DNA from: Halobacteriales archaeon
Lineage (GTDB): Archaea > Halobacteriota > Halobacteria > Halobacteriales > SKNY01
Assembly: GCA_007118975.1 (NCBI GenBank)
Contig: SKQO01000060.1
Span: forward strand, 1 to 64,000
Reading direction: 5' to 3'
Length of the DNA: 64,000 bases
This document shows positions 27,024-47,552 of this stretch, piece by piece. Below the pieces are notes generated by a model, which was not told the origin of the DNA, made no database searches, and saw nothing but the letters and a program-made list of their open reading frames with translations. Each line of letters opens with the position of its first letter. Position 1 is the stretch's first letter. A program made the translations under genes and the position numbers.

Positions 27024-27803
27024 CTAGGAAAAATCAACTAACTCACAAACGTCCGGGTGGTGTAGATACTCTCTGGCATCGTTGCTTAAATCGACATACG
27101 AATTCGCTCGGGAGACCTCATCTCGTACGCGTTGCCACTCTTCGTGGCGATACACGATACGTGTCGGGATCGAGTCGATGCCGGCAGCTTGCGCGAGTGT
27201 GGTCCGGTGATTGCCGTCAGCAAAGAGGATTAACGATCCGTCCCGACCCACGTTTACGGGTACAGCGGCGGACTCATCGAACCCCTCGGACTGTATGTTC
27301 TCGAACATCCGGTCGAGTTCCGCCGTATACGATTCAAACGCTTCGACAGACTGATCGTCCCCATCCAGTACCCGGAGGGACTTTCCTTCCGAAAGTCGAC
27401 TCATTCCGGTCTGATAATACTGCGTATCAGGCCACGGTTTTCCCTCCTCGTACCGTTCGAGCAGACCTTTCCACATGACCCCATACTCGAATCGGTGCAC
27501 CTTTTTCTCGTCCCAAGTACCTGGGACCACGCCAAACGGCGGGGCATCCTTCGGGAGGACCTTGTTCATGACGTACTCGATCTCAGATGGATCGAACCAT
27601 TGTCGCTCGTGCGTACGGGGTGCAGTTTCGCCATATCGCAACTGATAGGAGCACGCATAATACGCGAGAACACTCCAATGGAAAGCGAACTCCCGAGCAA
27701 TACGAAGGAAGGAATACACTCCTTCGTCTCTGAATGTATCGATCGCTCGCCCGAAAAGACCGGGAGGGCCGAGAGAGCCGAGCGAAGGCACAATACCACT
27801 CAT
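27024..27803 (-). CDS. GxHR-family protein, paralog 1 (ParB/sulfiredoxin-like)
   Basis: A 259-residue protein. The N-terminal 60 residues include amphipathic helices (REFAFHWSVLAYYACSYQL). The family core follows: WFDPSEIEYV, GTWDEKKVHRFEYG, LLERYEEGKPWPDTQYY, then a helical middle with FENIQSEGF. The C-terminal block is VNVGRDGSLILFADGNHRTTLAQAAGIDSIPTRIVYRHEEWQ with HPDVCELV at the end. The DGNHRxxxA segment resembles the DGHRR/GxHR loop of ParB- and sulfiredoxin-fold proteins, some of which are nucleotide-dependent kinases of small molecules. Function is unknown. It is divergent from the FkbM gene; three paralogs lie in this locus. Confidence 0.75.
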   Translation of the reverse strand: MSGIVPSLGSLGPPGLFGRAIDTFRDEGVYSFLRIAREFAFHWSVLAYYACSYQLRYGETAPRTHERQWFDPSEIEYVMNKVLPKDAPPFGVVPGTWDEKKVHRFEYGVMWKGLLERYEEGKPWPDTQYYQTGMSRLSEGKSLRVLDGDDQSVEAFESYTAELDRMFENIQSEGFDESAAVPVNVGRDGSLILFADGNHRTTLAQAAGIDSIPTRIVYRHEEWQRVRDEVSRANSYVDLSNDAREYLHHPDVCELVDFS

Positions 27804-28347
27804 CCTCCGTCGAGATTTGGGAGAAGCTTGGTAAAGTTAGACAGCCTATTTTTCCGTTGTCATAATGCTAAATTGCATACTGCTGGATAACGGGATAGTT
27901 ACGTTACAAAATTCCGAACTATCTCCGGGACAGACCAGTGCTCAAGAGCATCAACGATGGGTCCGTTGAGCAGACCCGCTCGAAATCACGTCCGTAGTGT
28001 CTTGGAGCTCCACTCAGGGGTGGCATCGAGGAATGGCCCACGTACGAGAGGGATACAAGCCCCCTAACTATGGCCTAACTGCTTCTGTTCTTTCTGAATG
28101 ATGAACGTCTCGGGAGACCAATTCGAGCTTGTCGAGCAATTAGATGACTTATTCAGCGAGTGCGAGCGAGAGCCCCCCTTCAATGTACAACGATGCCTGT
28201 TCTGGCATCAATATGGGCCGGGGTTCATGGGTATGCTTTACTGGGACGGTTCGGTACCTCATGGTCGAGTTACCAGCCAACTGACGAAGGGAGTCGTTCG
28301 CCTGCATCAGGTCGCGATTATTGCACACCGGTGTTTGGGCGGCGGCG
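27804..28347. other. Intergenic, about 540 bp between divergent genes
   Basis: It holds the promoters of GxHR paralog 1 and the FkbM gene. A frame from 28098 to 28355 is acidic at first but ends inside the FkbM start region and has no known motif. I do not call it. Confidence 0.4.
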
Positions 28348-29370
28348 ATGATTGACCGAGACATCCTGTCCCGACCGTCGGGCATGATTTGTCGTTTTGG
28401 CGGGCTCCGGATTCCGATTACCGAACGGCTCGAAGGGGCACTTGTAAACATCAATAACTTGATAGCACTATGGCGGCACAATGGAGCCACGTCAATTTCC
28501 ATCTATCTGTTAAGTGAACTATTCTCGCTTGCAACGTATCAGCGATACGCAGCGATTGCGTCTGACCTGCTCGGCACGAACATCGTGATGATTCGAGTTC
28601 GGGATTATGCGATGTTAGTCGATATAGAGGACCTCGGAATATCGCGGAATTTACTTCTGTTCGGGACATGGGAAGACAAACTTGCCACGTTGTTCGAAGA
28701 GGAGCTACGGAAACTTGGGGGGGAACTGAACAACGGGCTGGTCGTCGATATCGGTGCGAATATCGGGTACTATGCGTTGCTCGAATCGACATCGCTTGGC
28801 GACGACGCAGAAGTGCTCGCAATCGAACCGGCGAAAGACAACGCCAGGCTTCTCGAGCGGAACGTGCATCTGAATGGGCTTACAGAGCGAGTTTCGATCC
28901 ATCAGGGCGCAATCGGGGACCGAACAGGGACGGCAATCCTCCAACGATCGCGACGATCGAACCTCCATCGGATCGAACACGAACGCGTCTCCGACAGGCG
29001 AGGCGGGTCTCACAAAACCCAATTGTGGACCTTGGATGAGTTTCTTCGGTCCCAGGGACGGGATCCACAGGCAGTGAATGTGGTGCGAATGGACCTGGAG
29101 GGCTACGAACTAGAGGCCCTCGAAGGGATGGAGGAAGTCATCAACGGTGAGGGGCCACTGCTTCTCTATATCGAAGTTCATAACAACATTTTCGACGAGG
29201 AGGAAGCAACACGGGTCCCGGAACTGCTCGCTGCCGCCGGGTTTGAGATCCGTGGCGTCGAACGGGGGATCGTTACCGGACGACCGTTCGATGTGACTTT
29301 CAGTGCCCAGACGTGGGAGGAGTTGCCTGCGATCGAGAAAGCCTACGGATTGATTGCGGTAAAGGAGTGA
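28348..29370 (+). CDS. FkbM family methyltransferase
   Basis: A SAM-dependent methyltransferase of about 340 residues. Motif I is LVVDIGANIGYYALL, motif II is VLAIEPAKDNARLLERNVHLNG, and FkbM-type motifs are IHQGAIGDRTGTAIL and VNVVRMDLEGYELEALEGM. The N-terminal 100 residues are hydrophobic or amphipathic (ISIYLLSELFSLATYQRY) and may associate with the membrane. FkbM enzymes O-methylate sugars, lipids or polyketides, so glycan methylation fits the locus. The start is uncertain: ATG at 28348 (chosen), ATG at 28384, or an in-frame TTG at 28321. It is flanked on both sides by GxHR-family genes on the other strand. Confidence 0.88.
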   Translation: MIDRDILSRPSGMICRFGGLRIPITERLEGALVNINNLIALWRHNGATSISIYLLSELFSLATYQRYAAIASDLLGTNIVMIRVRDYAMLVDIEDLGISRNLLLFGTWEDKLATLFEEELRKLGGELNNGLVVDIGANIGYYALLESTSLGDDAEVLAIEPAKDNARLLERNVHLNGLTERVSIHQGAIGDRTGTAILQRSRRSNLHRIEHERVSDRRGGSHKTQLWTLDEFLRSQGRDPQAVNVVRMDLEGYELEALEGMEEVINGEGPLLLYIEVHNNIFDEEEATRVPELLAAAGFEIRGVERGIVTGRPFDVTFSAQTWEELPAIEKAYGLIAVKE

Positions 29371-29945
29371 GTGGTTCACTCGACCCGAAGCGCGACTCCA
29401 AGCACATCATACTCGACCAATGTGGAATCCGTTTTCCAACGGGCATGGGACGTGTGCGTTGAATCTCCACCAGTAACACCAGGCAGATCCGTTGACAGCC
29501 GTCCCGCTCAGACTGGCGAGGATTCCTGCGTAGTACAACAAGTCGTTCTCGCATCCCCAAACACATCCTGACCAGACGACGGGGTCTGGATGTGGTTTGT
29601 GAGTAATCCGGTCGGGCTTCGGATTGGAGGCGTGGTGAGCTTGGTATCCGTTTGCCTCTCACGGGCCGTGCTACCGTCCTGACTCAACCACAGGGATTGA
29701 ATAGGCATACGACGAAGGGTTGCGCTTTGGTGAGGGGCCCCGATCCAGCTCCAGTTTTCGTCTGACGTGCCTGTCTCACGATATGCTGTCAGATTTGAGG
29801 GCATTAATCGTCTTTTAAGCGCTGGATCCCCCGCCCGTCCCGCCGCCGTCGATGGTAAGACGCTCACAGTGAGGGGCGTTGGGGCAGTCGAGTCCGATCG
29901 ACGATACACAGGCTAGAAAAGACAGGGAAATAGCGGGATCTCCCC
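29371..29945. other. Intergenic, about 575 bp between convergent genes
   Basis: No frame shows coding bias, and no RNA gene was seen. A minus-strand frame at 29508-29909 has an Arg/Thr/Ser-rich composition unlike haloarchaeal proteins and was not called. Confidence 0.45.
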
Positions 29946-30737
29946 CTAGCGTAAGAGATACTCGACGTCCTCGTGGTCGTGGAAGGCCGGAACGTCGATT
30001 CCGTTGTATGCGGCTTCCCGGATTACCTGCCAGCCACGGTGCCGGATGTTCACTCTGACAGGAATCCGGTCTACGTCTAACAACTGAGCCATGACAAGTC
30101 GATGAATCCCCCCATCCCAGACGAATTCACCATCACGCGTGATGTTCACAGCGATCTCGCGAAACCTGGGTGGCAAGATAGAGATCTCGAAATCGTGGAG
30201 CAATTCGCCGGTCCGTTCGAGGTCGGATTGCGACCTGTATCCATTGGTAGAGAGATACGAGTACAATGAGTCCAGTTTCCGGCACCGTTCGAAGGCTTTC
30301 TCGGGAGCGACGTTGCCGTGCTCGGAAACACCCGTCGACAGAAATTCGACATATCCGGTGCGCTCCCAGCTGGCTCCCTCCTCGAAATGCTGGAATAAGG
30401 CCTCGTATACGATATCATCAGCGAAAGGAACGAGCTCTCGATCCCATTCGCCGCCGACAACGAGTGGTTTCCGAACGGCGTTCGAGGGCGGTTTCGTCGC
30501 CGATTTGCGCTGGACCACCTGTGGGTCGAGCCATATGATTCGATCGGGTCGAATGGGAGCGCTGTACTCTCGGCCGTGATGAACCCAGGCATTGAGCTGA
30601 GCTAACGTTGAAAAAGAGCTATAGACGAGCTTTCTGACGATCATAGATAGGTTCTCGGCGCGGCTCGATGGTTCAAGAATGGAAAATGGAATCCAATCAT
30701 CCGGCAGGTGTGTCATCACTACCACCCAGGCGACCAT
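29946..30737 (-). CDS. GxHR-family protein, paralog 2 (ParB/sulfiredoxin-like)
   Basis: A 263-residue protein with the family order of motifs. It has IIWLDPQVVQ, VVGGEWDRELVPFAD, LFQHFEEGASWERTGYV, a helical middle with LDSLYSYLSTNGY, and the C-terminal block VNITRDGEFVWDGGIHRLVMAQLLDVDRIPVRVNIRHRGWQ. The last residues are HEDVEYLLR. The N-terminus from the ATG at 30737 is hydrophobic and poorly conserved; in-frame ATGs at 30716 and 30644 are alternatives. It is convergent with the FkbM gene. Activity is unknown. The conserved His-Arg of GIHR and the GGEWD motif are the residues most likely to matter. Confidence 0.75.
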   Translation of the reverse strand: MVAWVVVMTHLPDDWIPFSILEPSSRAENLSMIVRKLVYSSFSTLAQLNAWVHHGREYSAPIRPDRIIWLDPQVVQRKSATKPPSNAVRKPLVVGGEWDRELVPFADDIVYEALFQHFEEGASWERTGYVEFLSTGVSEHGNVAPEKAFERCRKLDSLYSYLSTNGYRSQSDLERTGELLHDFEISILPPRFREIAVNITRDGEFVWDGGIHRLVMAQLLDVDRIPVRVNIRHRGWQVIREAAYNGIDVPAFHDHEDVEYLLR

Positions 30738-31105
30738 CCACGGGACAACCCGGGCAGTACTCCACTGAGGTCTCGGGTATCGTTGTGAAGCACCGGCGCT
30801 CCCGTGCCTGTAGATTCAAGGGGATAGTGGCGACTCGCCTCGCGTGCGGCTCTTCGGTAACTGGCGAACATCCGGGGTGGTCTCACGTCGCTCGAATTCG
30901 GCTTTGTTACGGGTAGCCTACCCCGTGATCTACCCCGATACGAGAATCACATCAACTCGGAGCCACCGAACGTGTTCAATCGTTCGGGGATTCGCATGCA
31001 CGAGCTCAGCTCGAAAAACCCCAGTGGCTGGCATTCCGCCCAGCCACACCGGAGGGGGTCCGGTCCCCGGGTTGGGTGGTCGGCTAACACGCGGGTCGAG
31101 GTGGA
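30738..31105. other. Intergenic, about 370 bp
   Basis: Upstream of GxHR paralog 2 and downstream of the beta-helix gene. A GC-rich stretch near 31050-31080 (gggggtccggtccccgggttggg) could fold and may be part of the beta-helix gene's transcription end. No gene was seen. Confidence 0.4.
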
Positions 31106-33604
31106 TTAGACCTCGATGGCCTCACTCATCACTGCGTTGTCAGTATCGTTGACCGACACCCGCACTTCGTCGACCTCTCCACGGACCCGGAGGATGTGAG
31201 AGAAGGCGGCGGAGTCGCCTGCGACACTCGTGCTCTCAGCGGCCACTACGTTGTCGTCAGTAATCAGTTTCGTCACGACCGTATCCAGTTTTCCGTCCTC
31301 GTGAGCGACTTCCCAATCGACGTCGTAGCGTTGCCAGTCGTCACTGCTTCGATCACTGACGTGGAACTCCTCAATGGTCGGGACGACGGGATTCGGATTC
31401 CCTTCACTCGTCTCGAAACTCACGATATCGCTCGTTTCACGAACACCATCAGCTTCTGCGAATGCCCTGAATTCGTAGCTCGTGTCCGCCTCGAGCTCCG
31501 AGAGTTCGGCCTCAAACGTCTCGGTTTCTTCGAGTGACTTCACCTCGGTGGTGTGGGGAAGATCATCGCCCTCGACTCCCCATTCGAAACCAACCCTGGC
31601 GGCGTCTACGCCTTCCAACGAGGTTAGCAAACCATTGAGAGTGGCGCTCGGGTTGTCGACCTCCGATGGTTCGTCTGCCTCGACGGCGAGCTCGACTGTG
31701 GACTCATCTACGCTCTCCGGAAACGGGGCAGTGGTTCCGTCTAATCCGACACTAAACACGTCGAACTCGACTCGGCCTGCATCAAACGAGCCGAGGCCGA
31801 CCCACCCGGACGAATGATCGTCATCGGATGTTTCGACGTCCCAGTCCGACGGCTCCAATTCGTCCGCGGGCCAGATTTTCACCTTGATATCGCTGCCCAC
31901 CGCTCGGAATCGCCGGAAGTAGAACGTATCTTCCTCGGGCGTGCCGAATCGCTCCATCGTCGAGAGTCGCCCGTCGGTGTACTTGGCAAGGCGGAACGCA
32001 TTCTCCCGGTTCTCGACTTCCACCCAATACCCGTCTGCACTACCGGGCCGGCCGGAAGTCCGAATGTGGGATCTAGCGTGAAACCCCAGATCGGAGTCAT
32101 CGGTGAATTCCGGAACCCGGAATTTGTCGAGCACCTCGACATCGTCTGGTTCGCCCAATCGGTCGCAAGAGAGGGCATACCGTGCCCGTTGACCTCCATC
32201 GTGCTCGAAGGTGAGTGCGTGATCGCCAGCAAACGCGTCACCTTCGACGACATCCCAATCATCAGCACCGCTTTCCCATTGCAGCGACCAGTCATCGTAT
32301 AGCGGCTCATCCGGTTCATTGCCCGAGGAGGGATTGCCGTCGGCCGAACCGTTGTGACCGGTTTCCTCGAAACTGGGAACATCGGGTTCGAGCGGCTCGC
32401 CGCCGTCGTCGATATTGTCGATCGAGAGGCTCCCGGTTGAACCGACGCCGTCCGCGTCGTCCCAGCTGAGAGACTCGATATCGCCGGATGCGTTCGGAGT
32501 TTGAAAGACCGGGTCATCGCCCCCAGATACACCGTGTACCGAGAGTGAACCGAAGCTGTCCCAATTGATCTCGTCGGAACTACCGCTGTTACGCTCCCAG
32601 AAACAGCCACGGCTCTCCCGGGCGAACCCGATATTGTGGAAGGCCACGTTATCGCCGGTAATGGTAACTTCCCTCCCGTTCCGGACACCCACACCGAACT
32701 CCGTTGTGTCTTCGACTTTGACGTGGTCCATGACAACCGTCGCGGAATCCCCATCGTGGACATACCACGCTTTGCGACCGTCATGGCCGCTCTCCATCAA
32801 ACTCTCGAACTCGTCCGTGTGGGCTTTGATGTAACAGTGTTCCAATCGAAGGTCAGCCGCGGTGAGTTTCGACCAGCCCGTCCCGACCCCCTCAACGTAC
32901 GACCAGCGAACGCGAATGTCGGTCTTCGGGGAGGAGTCGTTGATCGGGTTGCCTGCGATGTTGACGAAGCGGCATCGCTCGAGGTCCAACTCGTTCCCGT
33001 CGCTCGGGTTCCACGAGATCGCGTGACTGATCGAACTACCATCCGTCGCGACGTTTCGCTCGATGGCGATCCGCTCGAACGTGCACCATCTCGCCTCGAG
33101 GTCAATATCCCGAGCTCGAATCGCACGCATGTAGATATCGTTGAAATAGACCCGCTCCAACCGCAATGAGAGGTTGTTATCTCCTTTGCAATCGATCCCG
33201 TCACCCGGGTTGTCCAAATTGCCGGCGTTGCCGTACAATTGCACGCCGTGGAACTCACAAGTGCCGTGGTCTTCGTCCGATTCGAATTCGAACATCGTTT
33301 GCACGCGTGAGGTATCGCCACGGGCGGAGATCGCGATGACCGATTCCTCTGGCCCGTCTCCATAGATCGACCCACCGGCATCCGCGTCGGTACCAAACCG
33401 GATTCGCGGACCCGATCCCGATCGACCGATGTGGAAGGTGCCTGCGGGGACGTACACGTTCGTCCCGCTTGATTCGTTTGCTGCAGCAATGATCGCCTCA
33501 CGATTTCGTTCGGCCACATCGACGTCGTCATCGTCCGAGTTGGGCTCGGCACCGTAATTGGTGATGTCCTCGGCGTCGTCCGGGACGTAATCAGGCCGAC
33601 TCAT
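31106..33604 (-). CDS. Right-handed beta-helix (pectin-lyase fold) surface protein, multi-domain
   Basis: An 832-residue protein. Residues about 1-440 form a parallel beta-helix that starts EDITNYGAEPNSDDDD and includes VYVPAGTFHIGRSG and many C-x-F turns (WCTFERIAIERN, RCRFVNIAGN). After an acidic linker, residues about 470-650 look like a LamG/concanavalin-like module (LQWESGADDWDVVEG). Next is an Fn3-like module (VGFEWGVEG...SYEFRAFAE), then a final beta domain. It probably binds or cleaves polysaccharide outside the cell. The body lacks a signal peptide. The TAT leader is in the separate frame 33601-33831, which overlaps this ATG by four bases (ATGA). This frame is itself open upstream to 33784, so a frameshift is possible. 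It is paralogous to 34390-35931. Confidence 0.82.
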   Translation of the reverse strand: MSRPDYVPDDAEDITNYGAEPNSDDDDVDVAERNREAIIAAANESSGTNVYVPAGTFHIGRSGSGPRIRFGTDADAGGSIYGDGPEESVIAISARGDTSRVQTMFEFESDEDHGTCEFHGVQLYGNAGNLDNPGDGIDCKGDNNLSLRLERVYFNDIYMRAIRARDIDLEARWCTFERIAIERNVATDGSSISHAISWNPSDGNELDLERCRFVNIAGNPINDSSPKTDIRVRWSYVEGVGTGWSKLTAADLRLEHCYIKAHTDEFESLMESGHDGRKAWYVHDGDSATVVMDHVKVEDTTEFGVGVRNGREVTITGDNVAFHNIGFARESRGCFWERNSGSSDEINWDSFGSLSVHGVSGGDDPVFQTPNASGDIESLSWDDADGVGSTGSLSIDNIDDGGEPLEPDVPSFEETGHNGSADGNPSSGNEPDEPLYDDWSLQWESGADDWDVVEGDAFAGDHALTFEHDGGQRARYALSCDRLGEPDDVEVLDKFRVPEFTDDSDLGFHARSHIRTSGRPGSADGYWVEVENRENAFRLAKYTDGRLSTMERFGTPEEDTFYFRRFRAVGSDIKVKIWPADELEPSDWDVETSDDDHSSGWVGLGSFDAGRVEFDVFSVGLDGTTAPFPESVDESTVELAVEADEPSEVDNPSATLNGLLTSLEGVDAARVGFEWGVEGDDLPHTTEVKSLEETETFEAELSELEADTSYEFRAFAEADGVRETSDIVSFETSEGNPNPVVPTIEEFHVSDRSSDDWQRYDVDWEVAHEDGKLDTVVTKLITDDNVVAAESTSVAGDSAAFSHILRVRGEVDEVRVSVNDTDNAVMSEAIEV

Positions 33605-33831
33605 GATGAGTACTCCTGAAAATCGGTGGTGAACGTGTCCACGTCCGAGGCACTCCCAGTCGAGGAAGCAGAAACCATCGCCCCAGAACTGACCCCGACG
33701 ATTGCTGTCGCCACGCCAACCCTCACAAATTGGCGCCTGTTGAGTCGAGCGCTTCCGTGTCCCGCCTTCGAGTCGTCTGAACAAGGACCATCGTCCGTGG
33801 ATGACCCTTCTTGTGCCAGCTTGCGTGCCAT
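33601..33831 (-). CDS. TAT leader peptide frame preceding the beta-helix body
   Basis: A 76-residue product from the ATG at 33831: MARKLAQEG, an acidic Ser-rich stretch, then a twin-arginine signal (LNRRQFVRVGVATAIVG) with a VSAS-type cleavage region. It ends DTFTTDFQEYSS at TGA. The end is exactly where a mature surface protein would begin. The stop overlaps the ATG of the 832-residue beta-helix frame. Either the two are translated separately, leaving the body unexported, or they are one gene joined by a -1 shift, or an indel has split them. The first 16 coding bases equal those of the TAT gene at 59692. Confidence 0.65.
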   Translation of the reverse strand: MARKLAQEGSSTDDGPCSDDSKAGHGSARLNRRQFVRVGVATAIVGVSSGAMVSASSTGSASDVDTFTTDFQEYSS

Positions 33832-34389
33832 GCAGGCGTTAATCCCTTCATAATCGCAATAAGTGTTTCGTTCATTACATATTAACGACGGAGTGACATT
33901 CACGAAATATCTGATTTTATATCTAGAACATATCATGAATTCCCGGGCATGACGGTTGGTCGGTGATGTGTCGAACCAAGCCGTATATGAGGTAGGGACG
34001 TCTCACAGTGAATGGCGCCGCGTCCGATCGTCATTCGATGACACCCTGTTGCGACGTGCCACGGACGATGTGTTACGTCGAGTTACGACACGCATAACTG
34101 GACGACACTTCCCGGATCGAGCGAGAAGAGAAGTCGGCAACCTGCTTTATCCACTGCGAGGGTGAGTACACGAGCATCCAGCGCGCGAACTCAGCAACTG
34201 ACTCATAATAAGATTGCAGCTGAGGGAGCGAGGATCACACGGTGGCCGTGGCCGCGCTGAGTAAGCGATCAATAACCAAAGCTGAGTGTCTCCAATCTTC
34301 CCGTATCGAATGGTTGCCTGGTCGTTACATCCCCCCTCGAGCCTGAATAATGTCTTGTCCCGGTCTGAATTTGCCGTGGTATCGCACAA
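33832..34389. other. AT-rich divergent promoter region between two beta-helix genes
   Basis: 558 bp that should hold promoters for both beta-helix paralogs. The stretch 33838-33945 is notably AT-rich for this genome (attacatattaa, gattttatatctagaac). Apart from the minus-strand element at 33855-33867 I can assign nothing, and there is no gene. Confidence 0.5.
33855..33867 (-). promoter_or_regulatory. Core promoter element shared with the TAT gene at 59692
   Basis: The minus strand reads AACACTTATTGCG, 23 nt before the ATG at 33831. The identical 13 nt lie 23 nt before the ATG at 59692. CTTATTG is at TATA distance for a nearly leaderless transcript. Confidence 0.6.
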
Positions 34390-35931: not shown

Positions 35932-36176
35932 ACGAATCGTTGGACAGAGCACTCCGGAGAACATTCCGCCACATTAGGAGTGCAAAGATGACGGATGTGT
36001 TAACAGCAATTGACGTGTTGTGAACTCCAAGCCATTCCCTCGTGACAAGCGCGTGGATCCGGATTCCAAACCCGAGATCATCGGGTACATCGAGTACCGA
36101 TGCCGATACAAAGGACACCCGAACCAGTTAGCGATGGCTTAGCCAAATACCTCCCAGCTGACGGTTCTAGGTACCG

Positions 36177-37148: not shown

Positions 37149-37465
37149 GCTCGTCGGCGCCGCCGGGGTGAATCCGAGGCAGTCAAGCACGAGATCCAGG
37201 GTTGTACTAATCTTAGCAAGGAGCGCGACGGTGGGGCGCTGGGAGCCCCCCGACCGTTTCCGGGCCGTCCTCACCGCGATGCCGCAGCAAATAGGCGCCG
37301 CGTAACCTTGTCCTGAGACGCCGGATGTTGCCAAACGCCCATGACTTACAGTATCAATCATACGTTGGGACAAGCGAAAAGCACGGAAAGGCGACATCGC
37401 TGGATTCTCGAGAGTCATGTTGCGCAAGACCGGGTCGACGCGTCATCCCGTCCACGGATTTGGCA
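37149..37465. other. Intergenic, about 320 bp, GC-rich block
   Basis: Bases 37155-37320 are more GC-rich than the flanks (gcgccgccggggtg, gcgctgggagccccccgacc) and open in several frames. They may be the remnant of an older element, but I recognise no protein or terminal repeat. Confidence 0.35.
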
Positions 37466-38422
37466 ATGAAGCCCGAAACTGTCCTTGTCACGGGAGGCGC
37501 GGGGTTCATCGGGTCACATCTGGTCGACGCCCTGCTCGATGATGGCAAGCGGGTCATTGTCATCGATGATATGTCCACTGGCCGGGAGGAATGGTTGTCT
37601 ACGGATACCGAGGTACATGCCGCTGACCTCACTGATCCTGCCGTCGCCGACGAGGTCGTCACGGAAACGGTCGAGACAGTCTACCATCTGGCTGCCAAGA
37701 GTGACGTTGACGACGATCAACCATCCAAGCAATTTCACACGAACGCGCAGATGACGTACAATTTGGTTGAGGCCGCCGTCGACACGGGTGTCTCTTCGTT
37801 CGTCTTTACATCATCTTCGACAATCTACGGGGAAGCCCCGCAACCCACACCCGAGGACTTCGGTCCGCTAGAACCGATCAGCCCCTACGGGGCGAGCAAA
37901 CTGGCGTGTGAAGGTATTCTCTCGGCTGCGGCACATACTTCGCCACTGTCAGTGTACAACTTCCGTTTCGCTAATATCGTGGGGCCGCGCCTCAGGGGAG
38001 CGGTCATCCCCGACTTTATCGAGAAACTACAACAAGACCCCACGCGTCTCGAAATCCTTGGGGATGGACGCCAGGAGAAATCGTATCTTCATGTGACCGA
38101 CTGCGTTGAAGCGATCCGTCTCGTTACTGAGCAACTCGATCCCTCGATGATAAGCCTCAATCTCGGCACCCGAACAACCACTGCCGTCGATCGAATTGCA
38201 ACGATCGTCGCGGAAGAAATGAATCTCGCACCTGAACTCACGTACACCGGTGGTGATCGGGGATGGATGGGTGATGTCCCGCGGATGCGATTGTCGATCG
38301 AGAAACTTGCCGCGCTCGGGTGGGAACCCCGATACGAAAGCGAGAAAGCGGTCCGCCGGGCAACCAGAGAACTGCTCGAAGAGATGGACGTCCCCTCGAC
38401 CGTCGCTGAGCCAGCTAATTAG
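37466..38422 (+). CDS. NAD-dependent nucleotide-sugar epimerase
   Basis: A 318-residue extended-SDR enzyme from the ATG at 37466. The NAD loop is TGGAGFIGSHLVD, the active-site strand is FTSSSTIYGE, the YxxxK pair is in SPYGASKLACEG, and the substrate domain has NFRFANIVGPR. The sequence resembles archaeal UDP-glucose 4-epimerase-type and GDP/UDP-sugar epimerases of glycosylation loci. The exact reaction is not readable. The frame is open upstream to 37325, but the family start at MKPETVLVTGG is clear. It lies between two glycosyltransferase genes on the same strand, so it probably supplies their donor sugar. Confidence 0.9.
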   Translation: MKPETVLVTGGAGFIGSHLVDALLDDGKRVIVIDDMSTGREEWLSTDTEVHAADLTDPAVADEVVTETVETVYHLAAKSDVDDDQPSKQFHTNAQMTYNLVEAAVDTGVSSFVFTSSSTIYGEAPQPTPEDFGPLEPISPYGASKLACEGILSAAAHTSPLSVYNFRFANIVGPRLRGAVIPDFIEKLQQDPTRLEILGDGRQEKSYLHVTDCVEAIRLVTEQLDPSMISLNLGTRTTTAVDRIATIVAEEMNLAPELTYTGGDRGWMGDVPRMRLSIEKLAALGWEPRYESEKAVRRATRELLEEMDVPSTVAEPAN

Positions 38423-38509
38423 CATCTGCTGTCCCGTCATGGGATACTTCGTCTCGCAACCTCGATAAGGTGCCGGCTAACCAAACGCTTCAGTTGACAC
38501 TCTCTTGTA

Positions 38510-39736: not shown

Positions 39737-39789
39737 CTGAAATGTTCCCATAGAAGGCCCGTTCGTCACTGCGGGGGACACGGTTGAGC

Positions 39790-40986
39790 CTATCTTCCCG
39801 TTTGTTCCACAATAGTTTCGTGGTGAGATGCCAACCGCTCGCCGTGGGCGTCCCAGGTCCACCCTTTCTCGACGAGCCGTTCACGTCCCTTCAGGCCCAT
39901 CTCCGCTCGCCGCTTCGGGGTAGCAAGAAGGTCGGCAAGGGCATCGGCAAGAGCTGTCGGATCCTTCGGGGGAATCAAAAGGCCAGTTTCTCCGGCCCTT
40001 ACCTGCTCAGGAATTCCAGAGACGTCAGTTCCGACGACCGCCGTTTCACTGGCCATCGCCTCGTACACCGTGTTTGGTCGACCTTCGGCGTGACTCGGGA
40101 CTATCAAGATATCGGCCACCGTGAGCCACCGTCGAAGCGCCAACGGGGGGACTTTCCACAGTACCTCGTACCCGGTGTGTTCGCTTCTCGTGAGTGCCTG
40201 CAGCAAGTTCGGGCGCAAATCGCCATAATGACCGACAAACACTAGCTTCACGTCTTCGTGAGGGATGTGGTCTAGCGCGGCCACGATCTCGTGGATCCCC
40301 TTTCGCTCGGTGTACCCCCCGCAGAACAGGACGACGGCCGTGTCCCCTGGAATTCCCAGTTCACGTTTAATGGCCGATGTACACGCGACCGGATACCGCT
40401 CGGGGTTGGCACCGTTGGGGAGAACGCTGACCTTCGCTGGATCGACGAGATCCGCTGCGATATCGGCCAGCGACTGACTGACACAGTATACGCCGGACGC
40501 GTAGGTCAAGGTCTCCCGAATTTTTCGTCGGCCACGGCGTGGCAACTCTTGGTAGTCGTTAAGGAGCTTGCCACGACCCATCACCGTCAACGGAATATCG
40601 TGGCGGCGACAGTAAGGGAGCAACGCGTACCCGTCGTAGTGGATGTGGCCGGCATGGCAGATATCAGGTGGTTCGACATGCTTCTCGAGGTAGGCGGGAA
40701 GTCGTCTGGCGACGGAGGCAGAGGAGAGTGTATATCGAAACAGACGCTGTGGAAGGAGGTACGCAAAGCGTGGGTATCGAACAGCATGACTGTCGAAGGC
40801 GTGGTACTCCGGTATCTCCCGGTAAGATGCGTACGGGCCGATCGGCGGGGCGAACGGCCGGGGGGCCACGACCGTTGCATCGACGCCGGTATCGGTCAAT
40901 GCGCGAATGGAGCGGAAATTGAACAACCCCAGGTAGGGGTTGTATGGATCCGGATGATTCGCCGCGCTCACGACGGCCCGATACAT
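39790..40986 (-). CDS. GT4 family glycosyltransferase
   Basis: A 398-residue GT-B enzyme. The N-terminal domain begins VVSAANHPDPYNPYLGLFNFRS and contains DICHAGHIHYDGYALLPY. The C-terminal domain contains VLFCGGYTERKGIHEIVAAL, then VLWKVPPLALRRWLTVADILI, then PSHAEGRPNTVYEAMASETAVVG with the E-x7-E motif. The order and sizes are those of retaining GT4 enzymes acting on lipid-linked glycans. The gene is single on the minus strand, convergent with the neighbouring GT4, and 238 bp downstream of the ABC exporter gene that is on the same strand. Confidence 0.92.
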   Translation of the reverse strand: MYRAVVSAANHPDPYNPYLGLFNFRSIRALTDTGVDATVVAPRPFAPPIGPYASYREIPEYHAFDSHAVRYPRFAYLLPQRLFRYTLSSASVARRLPAYLEKHVEPPDICHAGHIHYDGYALLPYCRRHDIPLTVMGRGKLLNDYQELPRRGRRKIRETLTYASGVYCVSQSLADIAADLVDPAKVSVLPNGANPERYPVACTSAIKRELGIPGDTAVVLFCGGYTERKGIHEIVAALDHIPHEDVKLVFVGHYGDLRPNLLQALTRSEHTGYEVLWKVPPLALRRWLTVADILIVPSHAEGRPNTVYEAMASETAVVGTDVSGIPEQVRAGETGLLIPPKDPTALADALADLLATPKRRAEMGLKGRERLVEKGWTWDAHGERLASHHETIVEQTGR

Positions 40987-41224
40987 CTACGTTGACATCC
41001 TCATCCCCGTGGAAAAAGTAGCCCGCTACTAACGGGCCCTAGAACTCCGGGAGGCGGATAATTTGCCAAGAATGGCTGTCGATCGAGACCCTTTTCCAAT
41101 AGCCTGGACCGGTTCATCCCCATCCATTGGGTGGACGCTGCCGACGGTGCGGTTGTTCAATGGCAGGAACAGGTCGCAAAAGCGTGCCTGGGGCGACCTC
41201 TCCGCCGAGGGATGCACCCCGGAA

Positions 41225-43027
41225 TTAGGACTGAATCGCGTACAACTCCGCATACTTCCCGTCACTCGCAACCAGCTCCTCGTGGTTACCGTGTTCGGAA
41301 ATTCGCCCATTCTCCATGGTGTAGATCCGATCGGCGTTGACGACCGTCGACAGACGGTGGGCGATTGTAATGATTGCATACTCTCGCTCCATCGACTCGA
41401 TTGCTCGCTGGACCTCCTTTTCCAGATTCGAATCGAGATCGCTCGTGGCTTCATCGAGGATTAAGACATCCGCATCGGTGAGGAGGGCCCGGGCGAGTGC
41501 AACGCGCTGTTTCTGGCCCCCGGACAGCCTCACACCCTCGTCGCCGAGTTGGGTTTCCAACCCCTGCGGGAGCTCGTCCATAAACTCGTCGACCTTCGCA
41601 ATCTCGCAGGCTTCCCTGATGTCGACGTCGCTTGCATTCCGGGCTCCGATCGTCAGGTTCCCCCGGAGCGTGTCGTTGAAGATAAACGGGCTCTGTCGTA
41701 CGACAGCCAGGCGATCGCGCCACTCCCGCGGATGCATCTCATCGATGGGCAGACCGTTCGCATAAATTCGACCGCTGTCGGGATCGTAATACCGGGCAAG
41801 CAGGGAGACGATGGTTGACTTCCCGGCGCCGGATTGGCCGACGAACGCGATGAATTCGCCTCGTGTTACCTCGAAGCTGACGTTTTTCAGGACGAGTTCA
41901 TCCTCACCATCGTAGGAGAAGGTCACGTCATCGAATGCGATGTCTTCGACTCGATCGGGAGCGTCCTGCTCGCCACTGGTGGGTTCAGACCGGTGTTCAA
42001 GTTCCTCGATAAACGCCTGAGTGCGGACGAGATGTGGCAAATTATTCTCGATTTGGTAGACCAATTTGTTGATGCTGCTCATCTTTGGGCCCAGCTGGAA
42101 CATCACGAACAGAAACAACCCAAGCTCCCCGAACGAGAGATCGGCGAACGTGAGCGCGATATAGATAAGGAGGAAAATGAATAGCCCGATGGAAAGCCGG
42201 TAAAAGTCCTTGATGGCGGCCTCATTCCGTCGCAGTTTGGCTTTATTGTAGGTATATTTCTCCACTGCCTCGGCAAACCCGGCGTATACTTCATCCCGCA
42301 ATTGATACAATCGAATATCACGAATCCCCATGATTCCCGCTTGTGACGTTTGATGGCGACGTTGCTGGGCGTCGGCGACACGCTCACCGACGCGATATCC
42401 GGGTTCCAACGCAACCCTGAATAAAATGGTTAGTGCCCCCAGAATGGCGATTGCGATTACAGTGAGCAACGGCGAAATCCAGAACGCAATCGCGAGATAG
42501 ACCCCAGTGAGGAAGACGAGATCCGCCATCGACACGATTTTCTTGATGACGTTCGAGGAAACGGATGCCTCCGTGAGGATCGCATTGAGCATCTCATCTG
42601 AGGCCTCCTGGTCAAAATAGGACATGCGGACATCGAGTGCCCGATCAAAGGCCCGCTTTTGCAAGTATGCCCGATACGAGTAACGGAGAAGCTCTCGAAG
42701 CCAGGCGACGAGGAACGAAACGGAATAGCGCGTGCTCATTACCAACGCAACCCCCGCGATGACGTAACCAAGCGAGAACGGCACCCCCACCCACTGGTAA
42801 ATCTCGACGAAGATCAGCGTGATTCCTTCCGCTTCCGCCACTGGATCATCTGCTTGCACGATCTCGATAATCGGAACAATAAACGTCATTCCGATCCCCT
42901 CGAGGGCAGCCGCAACAATCCCCAATATCGCGATGAGGCCGATCAGCGGCGGATTAAAACGGGCAACCGTTGCAAGTGCGCTGAGTTTCTGCTTGAGCGT
43001 AATGTCGTCCGGAATGGAGTCGTCCAT
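41225..43027 (-). CDS. ABC transporter, fused membrane and ATPase domains (MsbA-like exporter)
   Basis: A 600-residue half-transporter from the ATG at 43027 (a TTG lies three codons upstream). The six-helix exporter domain (about 15-325) is followed by the ATPase with Walker A (GQSGAGKST), Q-loop (VVRQSPFIFND), signature LSGGQKQR, Walker B (DVLILDEATSD) and the switch His in IAHRLSTV. All catalytic motifs are intact, so a homodimer should hydrolyse ATP. In glycan loci this type flips lipid-linked sugars or exports glycolipids across the membrane. It is the only clear exporter or flippase in this locus, so it is the best candidate for moving the product outward. Confidence 0.93.
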   Translation of the reverse strand: MDDSIPDDITLKQKLSALATVARFNPPLIGLIAILGIVAAALEGIGMTFIVPIIEIVQADDPVAEAEGITLIFVEIYQWVGVPFSLGYVIAGVALVMSTRYSVSFLVAWLRELLRYSYRAYLQKRAFDRALDVRMSYFDQEASDEMLNAILTEASVSSNVIKKIVSMADLVFLTGVYLAIAFWISPLLTVIAIAILGALTILFRVALEPGYRVGERVADAQQRRHQTSQAGIMGIRDIRLYQLRDEVYAGFAEAVEKYTYNKAKLRRNEAAIKDFYRLSIGLFIFLLIYIALTFADLSFGELGLFLFVMFQLGPKMSSINKLVYQIENNLPHLVRTQAFIEELEHRSEPTSGEQDAPDRVEDIAFDDVTFSYDGEDELVLKNVSFEVTRGEFIAFVGQSGAGKSTIVSLLARYYDPDSGRIYANGLPIDEMHPREWRDRLAVVRQSPFIFNDTLRGNLTIGARNASDVDIREACEIAKVDEFMDELPQGLETQLGDEGVRLSGGQKQRVALARALLTDADVLILDEATSDLDSNLEKEVQRAIESMEREYAIITIAHRLSTVVNADRIYTMENGRISEHGNHEELVASDGKYAELYAIQS

Positions 43028-43807
43028 TGAGATCAACTACATGAGTGATCTTCGAGGAAGACGAAGACGTGCTCTGGCGCTCTCGACGCACGTTTCGGCG
43101 GTGGAGATATCATTACAATGTAAAACGCCGTGGAGTGGTGATTGTTAATTCGCGATTAGGTCGTATTTCCGGGGATTTGATTCCCCTCGGAACCGCTAGA
43201 AAACGAGTCACAGTTGAACATCACCCGTAAACTGCACAATGGCGTGATAGTGATCAAGCGAGGAACGGAACGAAGTGGGGCTCACCCTGCGGGGCCATCG
43301 ATTGGGACATCTCAGATGCGTCAGCGTATTGCATGTCGAAATATTTAGATCTGAAAGGGATGTCTCGAAACTGTACCGGACGCTAACAAGTTGGGGTTGG
43401 TGAGGTTTAGAGAGGAAACCGAGTGGGAGTTCACATCCACCCCACCCCCGGACTATCTGCTGTTGTCACGGTGATACCGTAATGAGATCAATACGAACGT
43501 TCCAATCACCAAAAAATCGATGACAACCATCAATGGTGCCCCGTGGAGTGTGTGACGGCATTACTCTGCCCGTTCAAAACCCTCGTGGTGTGGTAGTTGC
43601 CTCCCGAGTAGCACATCCCTGGAGAGTACCGATATCTCGACGGCAGTCACCCGAGAAAGTTATCCGATAGCCGAATGGGGGGCTGTTGAGAAATGCGCAG
43701 TGAGACCAACCCCGCGCCATTCACTATTATCGAATACATTTCATCGATGTAACGGGTACCGGCGGCCGTGCCTTGGCTTGAGCCATTCGCTACGTCTCCC
43801 CATCTTA
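43028..43807. other. Intergenic, about 780 bp, possible gene remnant
   Basis: The exporter promoter should lie here. On the minus strand 43254-43382 is open and reads like a protein end (KYFDMQYADASEMSQ), but no start or upstream continuation is visible. No intact gene or RNA was found. Confidence 0.4.
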
Positions 43808-44686
43808 TCAGCCGCGCAAAAGCCTAGTCCGTAACCGTCCCACTGTGCTCGTCGTCAAGTACTCGCCTACCACTCGAATCGTACTCACAATGCCATCACG
43901 TTGTGTCCTGTAGTACAATCGTCTGATTCTCCCGACATCTGTGGGGTTATCAGTGTCGATACGGAGCCCACGCGAATGTGTGTACACCCGAGCCTCACAC
44001 GACTCGTTGAGGATCGACCGACCCTTCGCCGGATCGTATCTGTATGTTAGCCCCTTCTGGCCATCTGTCTCCAACAGCCGGCCGTGAAACACTTTTACGC
44101 GGCCGTACAGATAGCCGGGGTAGTGACTGTAGAGACAGTTGTATTGCGGTGGTAACACTAGCATTTCGACAGTACTTAGATAGAGGGCGGTCCGGAAAGA
44201 CGGCTGATCAACGATTGTATCCGAGTGGTATTCGAACAGGCGCAACCACCCCACGAGCAAATCCTCGACCGCTTTGGTTTGTCGATAGGCGATAAATCCG
44301 GTATTGTACTCGGGCACGCCATCGGGAACGATACCCAATGGGCTCTCTCGCGATCGGACGTGGGACGGATCCATTACCAAACACAAGTCGAATCGATCGA
44401 GCATCTGAAACACCTCACTGATATCGGCATCGAGATAAATATCAGTATCCAGATAAATTGTCCGCTCATAAGGCGATTTCCCAAGGCAGGAAATTACGTC
44501 GTGTGATCCGTCCCCCCGCGGATTTGGTATGATTGCGTTGTGATCGATATGTTCGGAGTGGATAGCGGCATCCGAAAAAACCGTAATCGGAATATTCGGC
44601 ATCTGGACTTTGACGCTTTCGGCGGAAATCCGGCACTCCCGACGATATGTCTCCCCCGTAGCCACGTAGACGATGCCGACACTCAT
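43808..44686 (-). CDS. GT8-like nucleotide-diphospho-sugar transferase
   Basis: A 292-residue protein with a GT-A fold. The start VGIVYVATGETYRRECRISA is typical of GT8-like transferases. The DxD metal motif is IYLDTDIYLDADI (Asp80, Asp82 with a second DAD at 86-88). Then come FIAYRQTKAVEDLLVGW and VDQPSFRTALYLS, which place the acceptor-side residues. The C-terminus has HSRGLRIDTDNP. It is probably a retaining transferase with UDP-sugar donor. Third positions are less GC-rich than in the neighbouring wecBC genes, which may mean separate acquisition. It stands alone on the minus strand. Confidence 0.82.
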   Translation of the reverse strand: MSVGIVYVATGETYRRECRISAESVKVQMPNIPITVFSDAAIHSEHIDHNAIIPNPRGDGSHDVISCLGKSPYERTIYLDTDIYLDADISEVFQMLDRFDLCLVMDPSHVRSRESPLGIVPDGVPEYNTGFIAYRQTKAVEDLLVGWLRLFEYHSDTIVDQPSFRTALYLSTVEMLVLPPQYNCLYSHYPGYLYGRVKVFHGRLLETDGQKGLTYRYDPAKGRSILNESCEARVYTHSRGLRIDTDNPTDVGRIRRLYYRTQRDGIVSTIRVVGEYLTTSTVGRLRTRLLRG

Positions 44687-44950
44687 ATTGACGCAAAAAG
44701 GCGGCTCACTTGACTTAGTAAGGGTTCAGCTACGGGATCCTCATTGACCGTATCTCGTTAACGCACTCATAACTCGGTGATCGGTGTGATAGCGAGACAT
44801 CAATGGTCGGAGTATACGCTATTACCCGGATAACCCAGTGATAACTAATGATGTCCGCGTAGAATATTTGACTATTGGACAGAACACGTCGACAATCACG
44901 ATGGGTTTCGCCCGACAGCGCTTGCGGTTTCCAGGCTCAACCGGACTTAC

Positions 44951-45682
44951 ATGACACACGTCGAGTTCATGGGGGCGCCGGGAGTCGGCAAGACATCCCT
45001 CTGGGAACAGCTGATAACACACGACGAGTGCTACGGTGGCGTCGGGGATGGGGCCCTACGAAGAGTGTTCCTTGAGGGCACACGAACGAGGTACCGGCTC
45101 TGCTACCACCTTCTCCCATCATCCCTGCAGCGGACGTTTGAGAACGAGTTGCTCCGGTATCGATACCGCCAGCGATCTCTCGACGCCTACCTAAACGACC
45201 ACACCGAATTTGTCGAAACCATGTGTCTTCTTGCGCATAGCGTAGAACAAGATCGATCAGACATCACCAGATGGTTGCTACGGGATACTGCTCGTTACGA
45301 ACTGGGACGGCGGACGGTCACGGATGGTGAGGTTCTCTGTATAGATGAGGGCTTTATGCAACGATTGTTCTCGATATATTGGCGAGATCCAGACATGCAG
45401 TTATATCGATACATACAATCTGTCACAACGCCCTCGCTCGTGATCCATGTGGATGCCCCGCCGGAAACCGCCCTTGCGCGACAACGGTCGCGGGGGCGAG
45501 TCACTGCCGATCGAAGCTGGGAAGCGGATGAGCCACGGTTGGTCCAGCGGAAGATCCGAAGACTATGTCTAGACCTCGAAGCGACGCTCTCGGAAGAGAC
45601 GAATGTCCTTCATATCGATAATATCGGCGAGACCGAACCGATTGTTAGCGAGATTCGACGAGAAATTCATCGACACGTGTGA
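44951..45682 (+). CDS. P-loop kinase-like protein, paralog 1
   Basis: A 243-residue protein with the P-loop GAPGVGKT at residues 8-15. A second conserved point is the Walker-B-like IDEGF at 130-134. A LID-like Arg-rich segment follows: LVIHVDAPPETALARQRSRGR. This is the layout of nucleoside/nucleotide-kinase-like P-loop proteins. It aligns closely with the protein at 54003-54767, with the same P-loop and IDEGF positions within one residue. The substrate is unknown; a sugar, lipid or amino-acid alcohol of the glycan pathway is possible. It is convergent with GxHR paralog 3, with 146 bp between them. Confidence 0.82.
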   Translation: MTHVEFMGAPGVGKTSLWEQLITHDECYGGVGDGALRRVFLEGTRTRYRLCYHLLPSSLQRTFENELLRYRYRQRSLDAYLNDHTEFVETMCLLAHSVEQDRSDITRWLLRDTARYELGRRTVTDGEVLCIDEGFMQRLFSIYWRDPDMQLYRYIQSVTTPSLVIHVDAPPETALARQRSRGRVTADRSWEADEPRLVQRKIRRLCLDLEATLSEETNVLHIDNIGETEPIVSEIRREIHRHV

Positions 45683-45828
45683 CATGGAGCCACACACGTT
45701 GCTCACCGAGTGCCTCGAACGTAAAGCCGTAGAATAGGTGGAAAAGATCCCTCACATGATAGGGATATGGGTTCCTGTTATCAATGACGGTCGGCATTCG
45801 TCACGTCCAGCAGATCTGGATGTCGCGC

Positions 45829-46707
45829 TCAGCTCCTGATTCCTGTGACCTTGTCCCCACGATATAGTGCGTCGCGGCGATCTTGCCAAAACTCATGACG
45901 TAACGTGACGTGGCAGGGAATACGAAGATCAAAAATTTGGGCGATGGCGAATCGGTGCTTCCCACTGTTCGCGAGGTGGATCGTCCCATCCCTGGCGATC
46001 GTGAGCACTGGCTCGAGATTGTGAGGGCTCGATCCCGGACCATTCGGCGTGGCATGTTCGCTTGCGGGTCGGTAGCCGTTGTCCCTGATGTCGGCGAACA
46101 AGTCATCCACGTATGAACATCTTCCTTCGATGAAATCTGCTACCGAGGAGTATCCGTACGCCTCCCGTCCCGCGTCGATCCGGTCGGCCGCATGGGCTAC
46201 GTAATCGGTCTCCTTCCATTCACGGCCAGCCTCAAATCGTTGTTTTATGCCGGCAAACGTGGGATGTTCGTCAAGCTCGTGGAGGTTCTCCGACTCGTCC
46301 CAACCGCCGCCTCCCACTCGGCCCAGGCCTCTCGAATAGGTAATCCCGGTACGATGCGTGATTGAGCTCGGTTCAATTAGCAGGGTTTTGAAAGGGTGGA
46401 CAGGTGTGTCGTACCGGATGCGATTCCGAGTGTGGTGGCGGTAGGAGTTCAGCGCGATCAATGTCGGATGTTTGCTCTTCAATGGTGGGCTGTCCTTCGC
46501 AACATGTGCTAGGGCACGTACAAATCCCGTCGGACCCTCACGCCACAGCAGCCGACAGGCACGGATCGGGAGAGACCCCATCAACCTGTTCATCCCGATC
46601 GGGCTCTCGGCAGAACGAATCGAGGTAATTCCCTGCCTAATCGAATAGCTGGGACGTTGTAGTCCATCAATTACCGTCAGATCCGCTTGAGGACTTCTCG
46701 GGTTCAT
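45829..46707 (-). CDS. GxHR-family protein, paralog 3 (ParB/sulfiredoxin-like)
   Basis: A 292-residue member of the four-copy family. After a variable N-terminus with basic helices (RACRLLWREGPTGFVRAL) come LLIEPSSITH, GGGGWDESENLHELDEH, IKQRFEAGREWKETDYV, a helical middle with DDLFADIRDNGY, and the C-terminal block LTIARDGTIHLANSGKHRFAIAQIFDLRIPCHVTLRHEFWQ. Its GKHR replaces the DGNHR of paralog 1. The ATG overlaps the stop of paralog 4 (ATGA at 46704-46707), so it is translationally coupled and the N-terminus is fixed by that overlap. Function is unknown. Confidence 0.78.
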   Translation of the reverse strand: MNPRSPQADLTVIDGLQRPSYSIRQGITSIRSAESPIGMNRLMGSLPIRACRLLWREGPTGFVRALAHVAKDSPPLKSKHPTLIALNSYRHHTRNRIRYDTPVHPFKTLLIEPSSITHRTGITYSRGLGRVGGGGWDESENLHELDEHPTFAGIKQRFEAGREWKETDYVAHAADRIDAGREAYGYSSVADFIEGRCSYVDDLFADIRDNGYRPASEHATPNGPGSSPHNLEPVLTIARDGTIHLANSGKHRFAIAQIFDLRIPCHVTLRHEFWQDRRDALYRGDKVTGIRS

Positions 46708-47552
46708 CCTCCTCGGACGATATCATTCATGTCTGGATGACGTAGCTGTCGTTTCTCTTGCAATGTTAACCTCGAGCGGTCCATCGTACGAAACCGATGA
46801 CGCCTTTGTTGCCATATTTGATGTCGGATATGTACGCGGACCGGGATCCGATCGATCTCCAGTACTCGCGCCACGAAAAATCGGTGGCGACCGGTGACAA
46901 AGATGACCTCTCCGTTTCGACCGATACTGACCATCACCTCATCCCGCTCCGGCGGCCTAGTTGTGGTCACTTCCATGGGTGCATCGATGCGCGAGCGTAG
47001 CTCCCGCTGAGTGAGATATCCGTGCTCGCGCATATGCTGGAACAGCGAATCAACCGCCGCAAACCGATTCCTCATTCGGTCCGGCGTGCTGTACCGCTTC
47101 GAGATAGCCCCCGATCGAAATCGCTCGTAAATATCGGTCTCTTCCCAGGCAATGCCTTCATCAAACCGTCGTTTCATGGCTCGATAGAATCCGAGATCGG
47201 AAATACGAGCCAGTCGAGGCTCGGTTGGATCAGCGAATCCTTCCTTTGTTCCCAAGTATTCGACTGCCGTCGTGTAGGGACTCCGATCCCACTCTCCACC
47301 GCGAACGTAGGACCGATTCTTGTCCAGGCCCAGGTACCTCGGGACAAGCATCCACTCTACGACGCCCGGGTCGATCGAGATGAGTTTGTGGGGATGGGCA
47401 GTACTGCCGCCGTATCGCACAGTGTCCGCACGGCGCATTAATTCCGGTCGCCGTCGCTCGGCTGCCGACCGCGCAAAGACCCGCGTCTCGATCAGGGCGC
47501 TGGCGGGGCCATCTTTACTGCCCAAGCGATCGAAGTAATTACCCAGAACCAT
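46704..47552 (-). CDS. GxHR-family protein, paralog 4 (ParB/sulfiredoxin-like)
   Basis: A 282-residue member with SIDPGVVEWMLVPRYLG, VRGGEWDRSPYTTAVE, MKRRFDEGIAWEETDIY, a helical middle with VDSLFQHMREHGY, and VSIGRNGEVIFVTGRHRFFVARVLEIDRIPVRVHIRHQIWQ, ending HPDMNDIVRGG. It is richest in arginine of the four and lacks the extended N-terminal helices of paralog 1. It is the second gene of a minus-strand unit: aldo/keto reductase, 39 bp, paralog 4, ATGA overlap, paralog 3. The coupling suggests the two paralogs act together, perhaps as a heteromer; this is inference. Confidence 0.78.
   Translation of the reverse strand: MVLGNYFDRLGSKDGPASALIETRVFARSAAERRRPELMRRADTVRYGGSTAHPHKLISIDPGVVEWMLVPRYLGLDKNRSYVRGGEWDRSPYTTAVEYLGTKEGFADPTEPRLARISDLGFYRAMKRRFDEGIAWEETDIYERFRSGAISKRYSTPDRMRNRFAAVDSLFQHMREHGYLTQRELRSRIDAPMEVTTTRPPERDEVMVSIGRNGEVIFVTGRHRFFVARVLEIDRIPVRVHIRHQIWQQRRHRFRTMDRSRLTLQEKRQLRHPDMNDIVRGG

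Follow-up and report, generated by a model that had tools for sequence, protein, structure and literature searches.

The four genes and their surroundings

What could be the function of four distant paralogs, each provided with a G-x-H-R loop, in a surface-glycan locus of an archaeon? We addressed this question in a stretch of 64,000 nt of a Halobacteriales archaeon (assembly GCA_007118975.1, contig SKQO01000060.1, positions 1 to 64,000, forward strand), called the window in what follows. An earlier note on this DNA had picked out the four open reading frames, without giving their strand, as copies of an undescribed family. Each of them has an ATG start and a stop at the coordinates of Table 1, all are on the minus strand, and they are real paralogs, with pairwise identities of 24-28% in a full-length alignment (A1) which contains 26 invariant columns. 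The motifs follow one another in the order (D/E)P, G-x-W-D, G-x-x-W-x-x-T, G[YF], R(D/N)G, G-x-H-R, A, IP and RH-x-x-WQ. The order announced by the note is correct, but P0003 does not carry all the motifs: it is devoid of the terminal HPD/HED motif, and it has IEP at the site where the other three copies have DP.

Table 1. Members of the GxHR family and neighboring genes in the window
Feature	Coordinates	Strand	Remarks
P0001, GxHR-family member, 259 aa	27024..27803	-	GNHR loop, C-terminal HPDV; predicted ParB/Srx-type fold
FkbM-type SAM methyltransferase	28321..29370	+	between P0001 and P0002; Pfam Methyltransf_21 4e-20
P0002, GxHR-family member, 263 aa	29946..30737	-	GIHR loop, C-terminal HEDV
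NAD-dependent epimerase/dehydratase	37325..38422	+	56-60% homologs adjoin P0003-like members in two other genomes
ABC exporter, membrane domain and ATPase	41225..43036	-	homologs in other family loci
PL1, P-loop small-molecule kinase-like protein	44951..45682	+	convergent with P0003; weak Pfam AAA matches
P0003, GxHR-family member, 292 aa	45829..46707	-	GKHR loop
P0004, GxHR-family member, 282 aa	46704..47552	-	GRHR loop, C-terminal HPDM; copy used for modelling
Aldo/keto reductase (AKR)	47592..48512	-	Pfam; 39 bases upstream of P0004, same strand

By Pfam, the window locus is of the surface-glycan type, with glycosyltransferases, epimerases, a UDP-sugar dehydrogenase and a WecB-type epimerase; a heparinase-like protein, an ABC exporter, an FkbM methyltransferase and MocA-type oxidoreductases are also encoded there. 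The three neighbors named by the note (FkbM, AKR and the P-loop protein) were all found by Pfam, the last one through weak AAA matches, and the FkbM methyltransferase is a possible partner of the family. Because P0003 and the end of P0004 share 4 bases and the gap to the AKR gene is short, all on the same strand, AKR-P0004-P0003 (48512-45829) probably form one operon, as judged from gene spacing. We rejected AKR as a general partner of the family, since it is present in none of the 40 family loci sampled.

Three other genes of the window deserve mention. A second P-loop small-molecule kinase-like protein is encoded at 54003-54767. The 598-aa product of 23476-25272 has multiple membrane spans and no Pfam match; distant homologs of it were found in 8 of 117 family loci and in none of 20 controls, and it is possibly a glycan polymerase or a membrane glycosyltransferase. 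The 892-aa reading frame at 31106-33784 has a sub-threshold match to a purple-acid-phosphatase N-domain and no homolog among the other family loci.

Distribution and origin of the family

A profile built from P0001-P0004 has 11 matches in their own genome (78% complete). Seven of these are beyond the four: three on contig C115, one each on C101, C41 and C74, and a fragment on C153, with a best E-value of 6e-44. In the order as a whole, where at most 8 candidates were scored per genome and complete match lists were obtained for 11 genomes, the family is present in 99 of 295 genomes and 49 of 88 genera, often in multiple copies per genome. These matches, in their own genome and in the order, show that the four are related beyond chance. 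A scan of GTDB contigs with the pattern HRLxIAK[LI]L[EGD] yielded 77 loci, haloarchaeal for the most part; the others are from Nanohaloarchaea, Lokiarchaeota, Bacillota, Bacteroidota, Planctomycetota, Pseudomonadota, Verrucomicrobiota and further phyla. Hence the family is tied neither to haloarchaea nor to the locus of the window, as its members also occur in bacteria, in other archaea and in other loci. Those found on annotated plasmids are labelled "hypothetical protein". Phages, searched with one member, gave no match and viral contigs gave a single fragment, so that the family does not appear to be viral as far as these sequence searches went.

We then considered whether the four copies arose by local expansion. 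In a tree of 123 members they are united in 0% of the bootstrap trees. The nearest relatives of P0003 and of P0004 are proteins from other archaeal families (supports 100/89 and 100/92, respectively), P0002 clusters with proteins from other archaeal families, and P0001 is a long branch without placement. As the tree never groups the four copies, we rejected local duplication as their origin, and the view of the earlier note, in which old copies had been kept in one locus, finds no support in the form given there. From their sequences, P0001-P0004 look like separate subfamilies, which would have been either separately acquired or long separated.

Two observations concern the copies in other haloarchaea. 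In Halorubrum vacuolatum, five diverged members are packed inside 7 kb (L055:7180-13809). A truncated member is found with equal score, identity and span in three differently named haloarchaea (L054:12001-12492 and the plasmids NZ_KX906370 and CP007061); it sits among transposases in DL31, and this looks like the recent exchange of a broken copy.

Association with surface-glycan loci

We compared 40 loci of 13-19 kb, chosen among the better-scoring matches in the order, with 20 control stretches of the genomes of this order. One or more genes for a glycosyltransferase or flippase are present in 29 of the 40 family loci and in 1 of the 20 controls (Fisher p = 8e-7), and 24 family loci possess at least two; about one quarter have none by the references used. 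This shows that the GxHR family is strongly tied to surface-glycan loci, and the possibility, raised in the note, that it occurs mostly outside such loci is not what we found. The same picture is given by the 113 immediate neighbors in named loci, which include 14 Glycos_transf_2, 13 Glycos_transf_1 and 14 Polysacc_synt. FkbM is present in 5 of the 40 family loci and in none of the 20 controls. Full-length homologs of the ABC exporter of the window occur in 21 of 117 family loci, 18 of them with at least 45% identity, and in 0 of 20 controls (p = 0.04). In the bacterium Salipaludibacillus, the member is part of a capsule-type locus which also encodes a Wzy protein, a TupA-like ATP-grasp protein and a glycerophosphotransferase. 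In Fuchsiella alkaliacetigena, two tandem members come directly after a run of genes with Pfam Kdo/WaaP kinase matches and an O-antigen ligase gene (L129:4630-11064).

PL1 is rare, being present in 11 of the 295 genomes, all of which have the GxHR family (p = 4e-6), and 11 of its 12 copies are within 7 kb of a family member. Part of this association is accounted for by the common residence of both in glycan loci. Separately, we noticed by eye a nucleotidyltransferase-like protein near members (L056:7054-7857); a cluster of three is seen in three loci.

A new family with a predicted ParB-type fold

Neither Pfam nor NCBIfam gave any match for P0001-P0004, and on 90 members Pfam returned no relevant model, ParB_N included, in agreement with the claim that the family was undescribed. 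PF02195 reaches 0 of the 90 members at E 0.1 and has no match anywhere in the genome of the window, so that it misses all 11 family matches there. On the same 90 members, the only relevant NCBIfam matches are to SbnI (5 members, best 3.7e-4) and to SerK (1 member, 0.0088). The SbnI model also matches the fusion protein L110 described below, with 15.6 bits for a cut-off of 350, and no member reaches the curated cut-offs of either model. These matches are a hint in the direction of kinases, which comes from sequence models and is independent of the fold comparison. Among the sequences of the PDB, the family profile found nothing beyond chance matches.

The AlphaFold model of P0004, computed from a 90-sequence alignment, has a pLDDT of 85 and a pTM of 0.81. 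The matches listed by Foldseek against the PDB are not unrelated folds: nearly all are sulfiredoxin (with ATP/ADP), ParB/Noc/KorB (with CTP/CDP), SbnI (with ADP) and the P. furiosus protein 1vk1, and superposition on Noc and SbnI gives 2.2-2.6 A across about 75 residues. Foldseek gave weak E-values (0.064 at best) and low TM-scores, because the shared part is the C-terminal core, about 80 of 282 residues. In profile-profile comparisons, we obtained 59.5% with haloarchaeal ParB, the GxHR loop falling on GQRR, and 45.2% with SerK-like proteins, the loop falling on DGMHR; as references, SerK-like proteins compared with ParB gave 27% and an unrelated methyltransferase 8%. Since the structural match and the profile alignment of core and loop agree, membership in the ParB-CTPase fold superfamily, which the earlier note had suspected from the loop, is well supported at the level of prediction. 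The profile comparison does not put the family closer to kinases than to ParB.

In an alignment of 90 members (A5), the P motif GxxR has its G in 88 and its R in all 90, where H and R are partly selected since the scan pattern contains HRL; in the 43 rows of A2, assembled without this selection, G214, R224 and P237 are invariant and H223 is kept in at least 90%. The aspartate of the DGxHR loop of SerK is catalytic. The Asp preceding the glycine is present in just 25 of the 90 members, so that serine-kinase chemistry is not simply transferable to the family. Outside the presumed nucleotide loop, the residues kept are polar and aromatic (GxWD, WxxT, RHxxW).

With SbnI and SerK (NF033589, NF053625), the family thus has in common a ParB-type fold, as predicted here, and the GxHR loop, a putative phosphate loop, but it differs from them by RHxxWQ and HPD besides GxWD and WxxT, by an N-terminal helical region, and by its residence in glycan loci, where SbnI and SerK belong to amino-acid or siderophore loci. 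With the PF02195 ParB-CTPase proteins it shares the predicted core fold and the position of the P motif. Unlike them, it has a glycan context and no C-terminal dimerisation domain according to Pfam on the 90 members, and the same scan gave just three weak HTH_24 matches (best 0.046). Sulfiredoxin, the best Foldseek match, has in common a core of about 82 residues, which binds ATP in sulfiredoxin, and a GxHR-type loop, whereas the position of the Cys of its GCHR is not conserved in the family, which has in addition its N-terminal region and its glycan context.

Fusions to methyltransferases

In several genomes a class I SAM methyltransferase follows the HPDL end of the domain in one fused protein (L078, with two genes, L087, L102, L110 and L118). 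The hosts are Lokiarchaeota (two tandem genes), a planctomycete, a Nealsonbacteria MAG, Azospirillum and an unclassified bacterium; no such fusion was seen in haloarchaea. A further candidate, L105 (513 aa), was rejected, being a family reading frame joined to transposase sequence.

These fusions recall WbdD, the chain terminator of E. coli O9a, which puts a phosphate on the terminus of the O9a chain and methylates this phosphate, with His132, His133 and Arg203 in its methyltransferase (PMC3482155). For the model of the Nealsonbacteria fusion (pLDDT 88.6), Foldseek places XrdM at rank 1 and WbdD at ranks 2, 3, 5 and 6. By sequence, WbdD is only about 12th among the methyltransferases compared with the fused domain; we therefore regard the modelled likeness as suggestive only, rejected WbdD as a specific relative and kept it as an analogy. 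A pair of histidines stands at about the position of that of WbdD in some fusions and is missing in L087 and L118; such a pair occurs in ordinary methyltransferases too. A similar methyltransferase fold, by the model, the glycan locus and, in some loci, an ABC exporter are common to both systems, and the fusions may follow the two-part logic of WbdD. In contrast, WbdD has a kinase of eukaryotic-type fold and the reversed order of domains, while our fusions have a predicted ParB-type fold followed by the methyltransferase and no member scanned has a Pfam kinase domain; no haloarchaeal fusion was seen, and the sequence likeness is nothing special.

Discussion

We propose that the GxHR family is an NTP-using enzyme of surface-glycan synthesis, most likely a kinase of glycans or of their precursors, and we give this reading a probability of about 0.45. 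The SerK-type kinase idea of the note has received circumstantial support, to which the methyltransferase fusions, the LPS-kinase genes before the two Fuchsiella members and the P-loop kinase-like PL1 near the family contribute as clues to the chemistry, and kinase activity itself is what we infer. The protein would combine a ParB/sulfiredoxin fold with an N-terminal helical region; the R(D/N)G...GxHR loop would bind the phosphates of a nucleotide, and a phosphate would be transferred to a hydroxyl group on a sugar, on a glycan end or on a glycan precursor. Where a SAM methyltransferase is fused, in some bacteria and Asgard archaea, it could methylate this phosphate or a nearby hydroxyl, so that the chain would be capped in the manner of WbdD, whose kinase fold is another one. 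On this view, the many diverged copies would be distinguished by their glycan acceptors. We infer NTP use, phosphoryl transfer, acceptor and capping alike.

The main rival is an NTP-binding regulator or scaffold, which would bind ATP or CTP and switch or recruit a glycosyltransferase, a methyltransferase or an exporter without any catalysis. Most ParB-fold proteins are indeed CTP/ATP switches, and their fusions to methyltransferases and acetyltransferases have been discussed as regulatory (PMC12704722). The likeness of our family to ParB, at least equal to that to SerK, and the non-conserved Asp of the loop go in the same direction. However, many diverged copies per locus which keep GxWD, WxxT and RHxxW fit a substrate pocket better, and the HTH and dimerisation domains are missing; we hold this explanation to be somewhat unlikely.

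Quite unlikely, in our opinion, is a kinase of free amino acids or small metabolites, similar to SerK or SbnI, which would make a phosphorylated block such as O-phosphoserine for the decoration of glycans. No relevant family model other than SbnI and SerK gave a match, and a P-loop kinase, where present, is often a neighbor, but the scores are far under the curated cut-offs, the Asp of DGxHR is mostly absent and no gene of serine metabolism turned up next to those examined. Very improbable is a DNA-binding ParB-like transcription or partition factor that lies in glycan islands by chance: the fold superfamily includes homologs which regulate genes (PMC12704722) and the islands are mobile, but PF02195 misses all 11 genomic matches, Pfam detects no HTH above chance, no linkage to parA was seen, the neighbors being glycan genes, and neither the methyltransferase fusions nor the several copies per locus agree with such a role.

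Returning to the glycan kinase, one can formulate a bolder version: a new class of ParB-fold glycan kinases in archaea and bacteria, an independent counterpart of WbdD, which in some lineages would make methyl-phosphate caps by means of a fused or neighboring methyltransferase. We find this version rather doubtful.

A survey of 2025 reported that some ParB-fold proteins fused to SAM methyltransferases bind ATP (PMC12704722). As PF02195 reaches none of the 90 members, a survey based on this model should miss the GxHR family, which would represent a large ParB-fold set outside its range. The family is present in one third of the sampled genomes of the order, often in several copies, and has no entry in Pfam or NCBIfam. 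To our knowledge, glycan phosphorylation has so far been assigned to no ParB-fold enzyme. If the GxHR proteins are kinases, glycan phosphorylation would be added to the repertoire of this fold, and phosphate or methyl-phosphate would be predicted on the surface glycans of haloarchaea.
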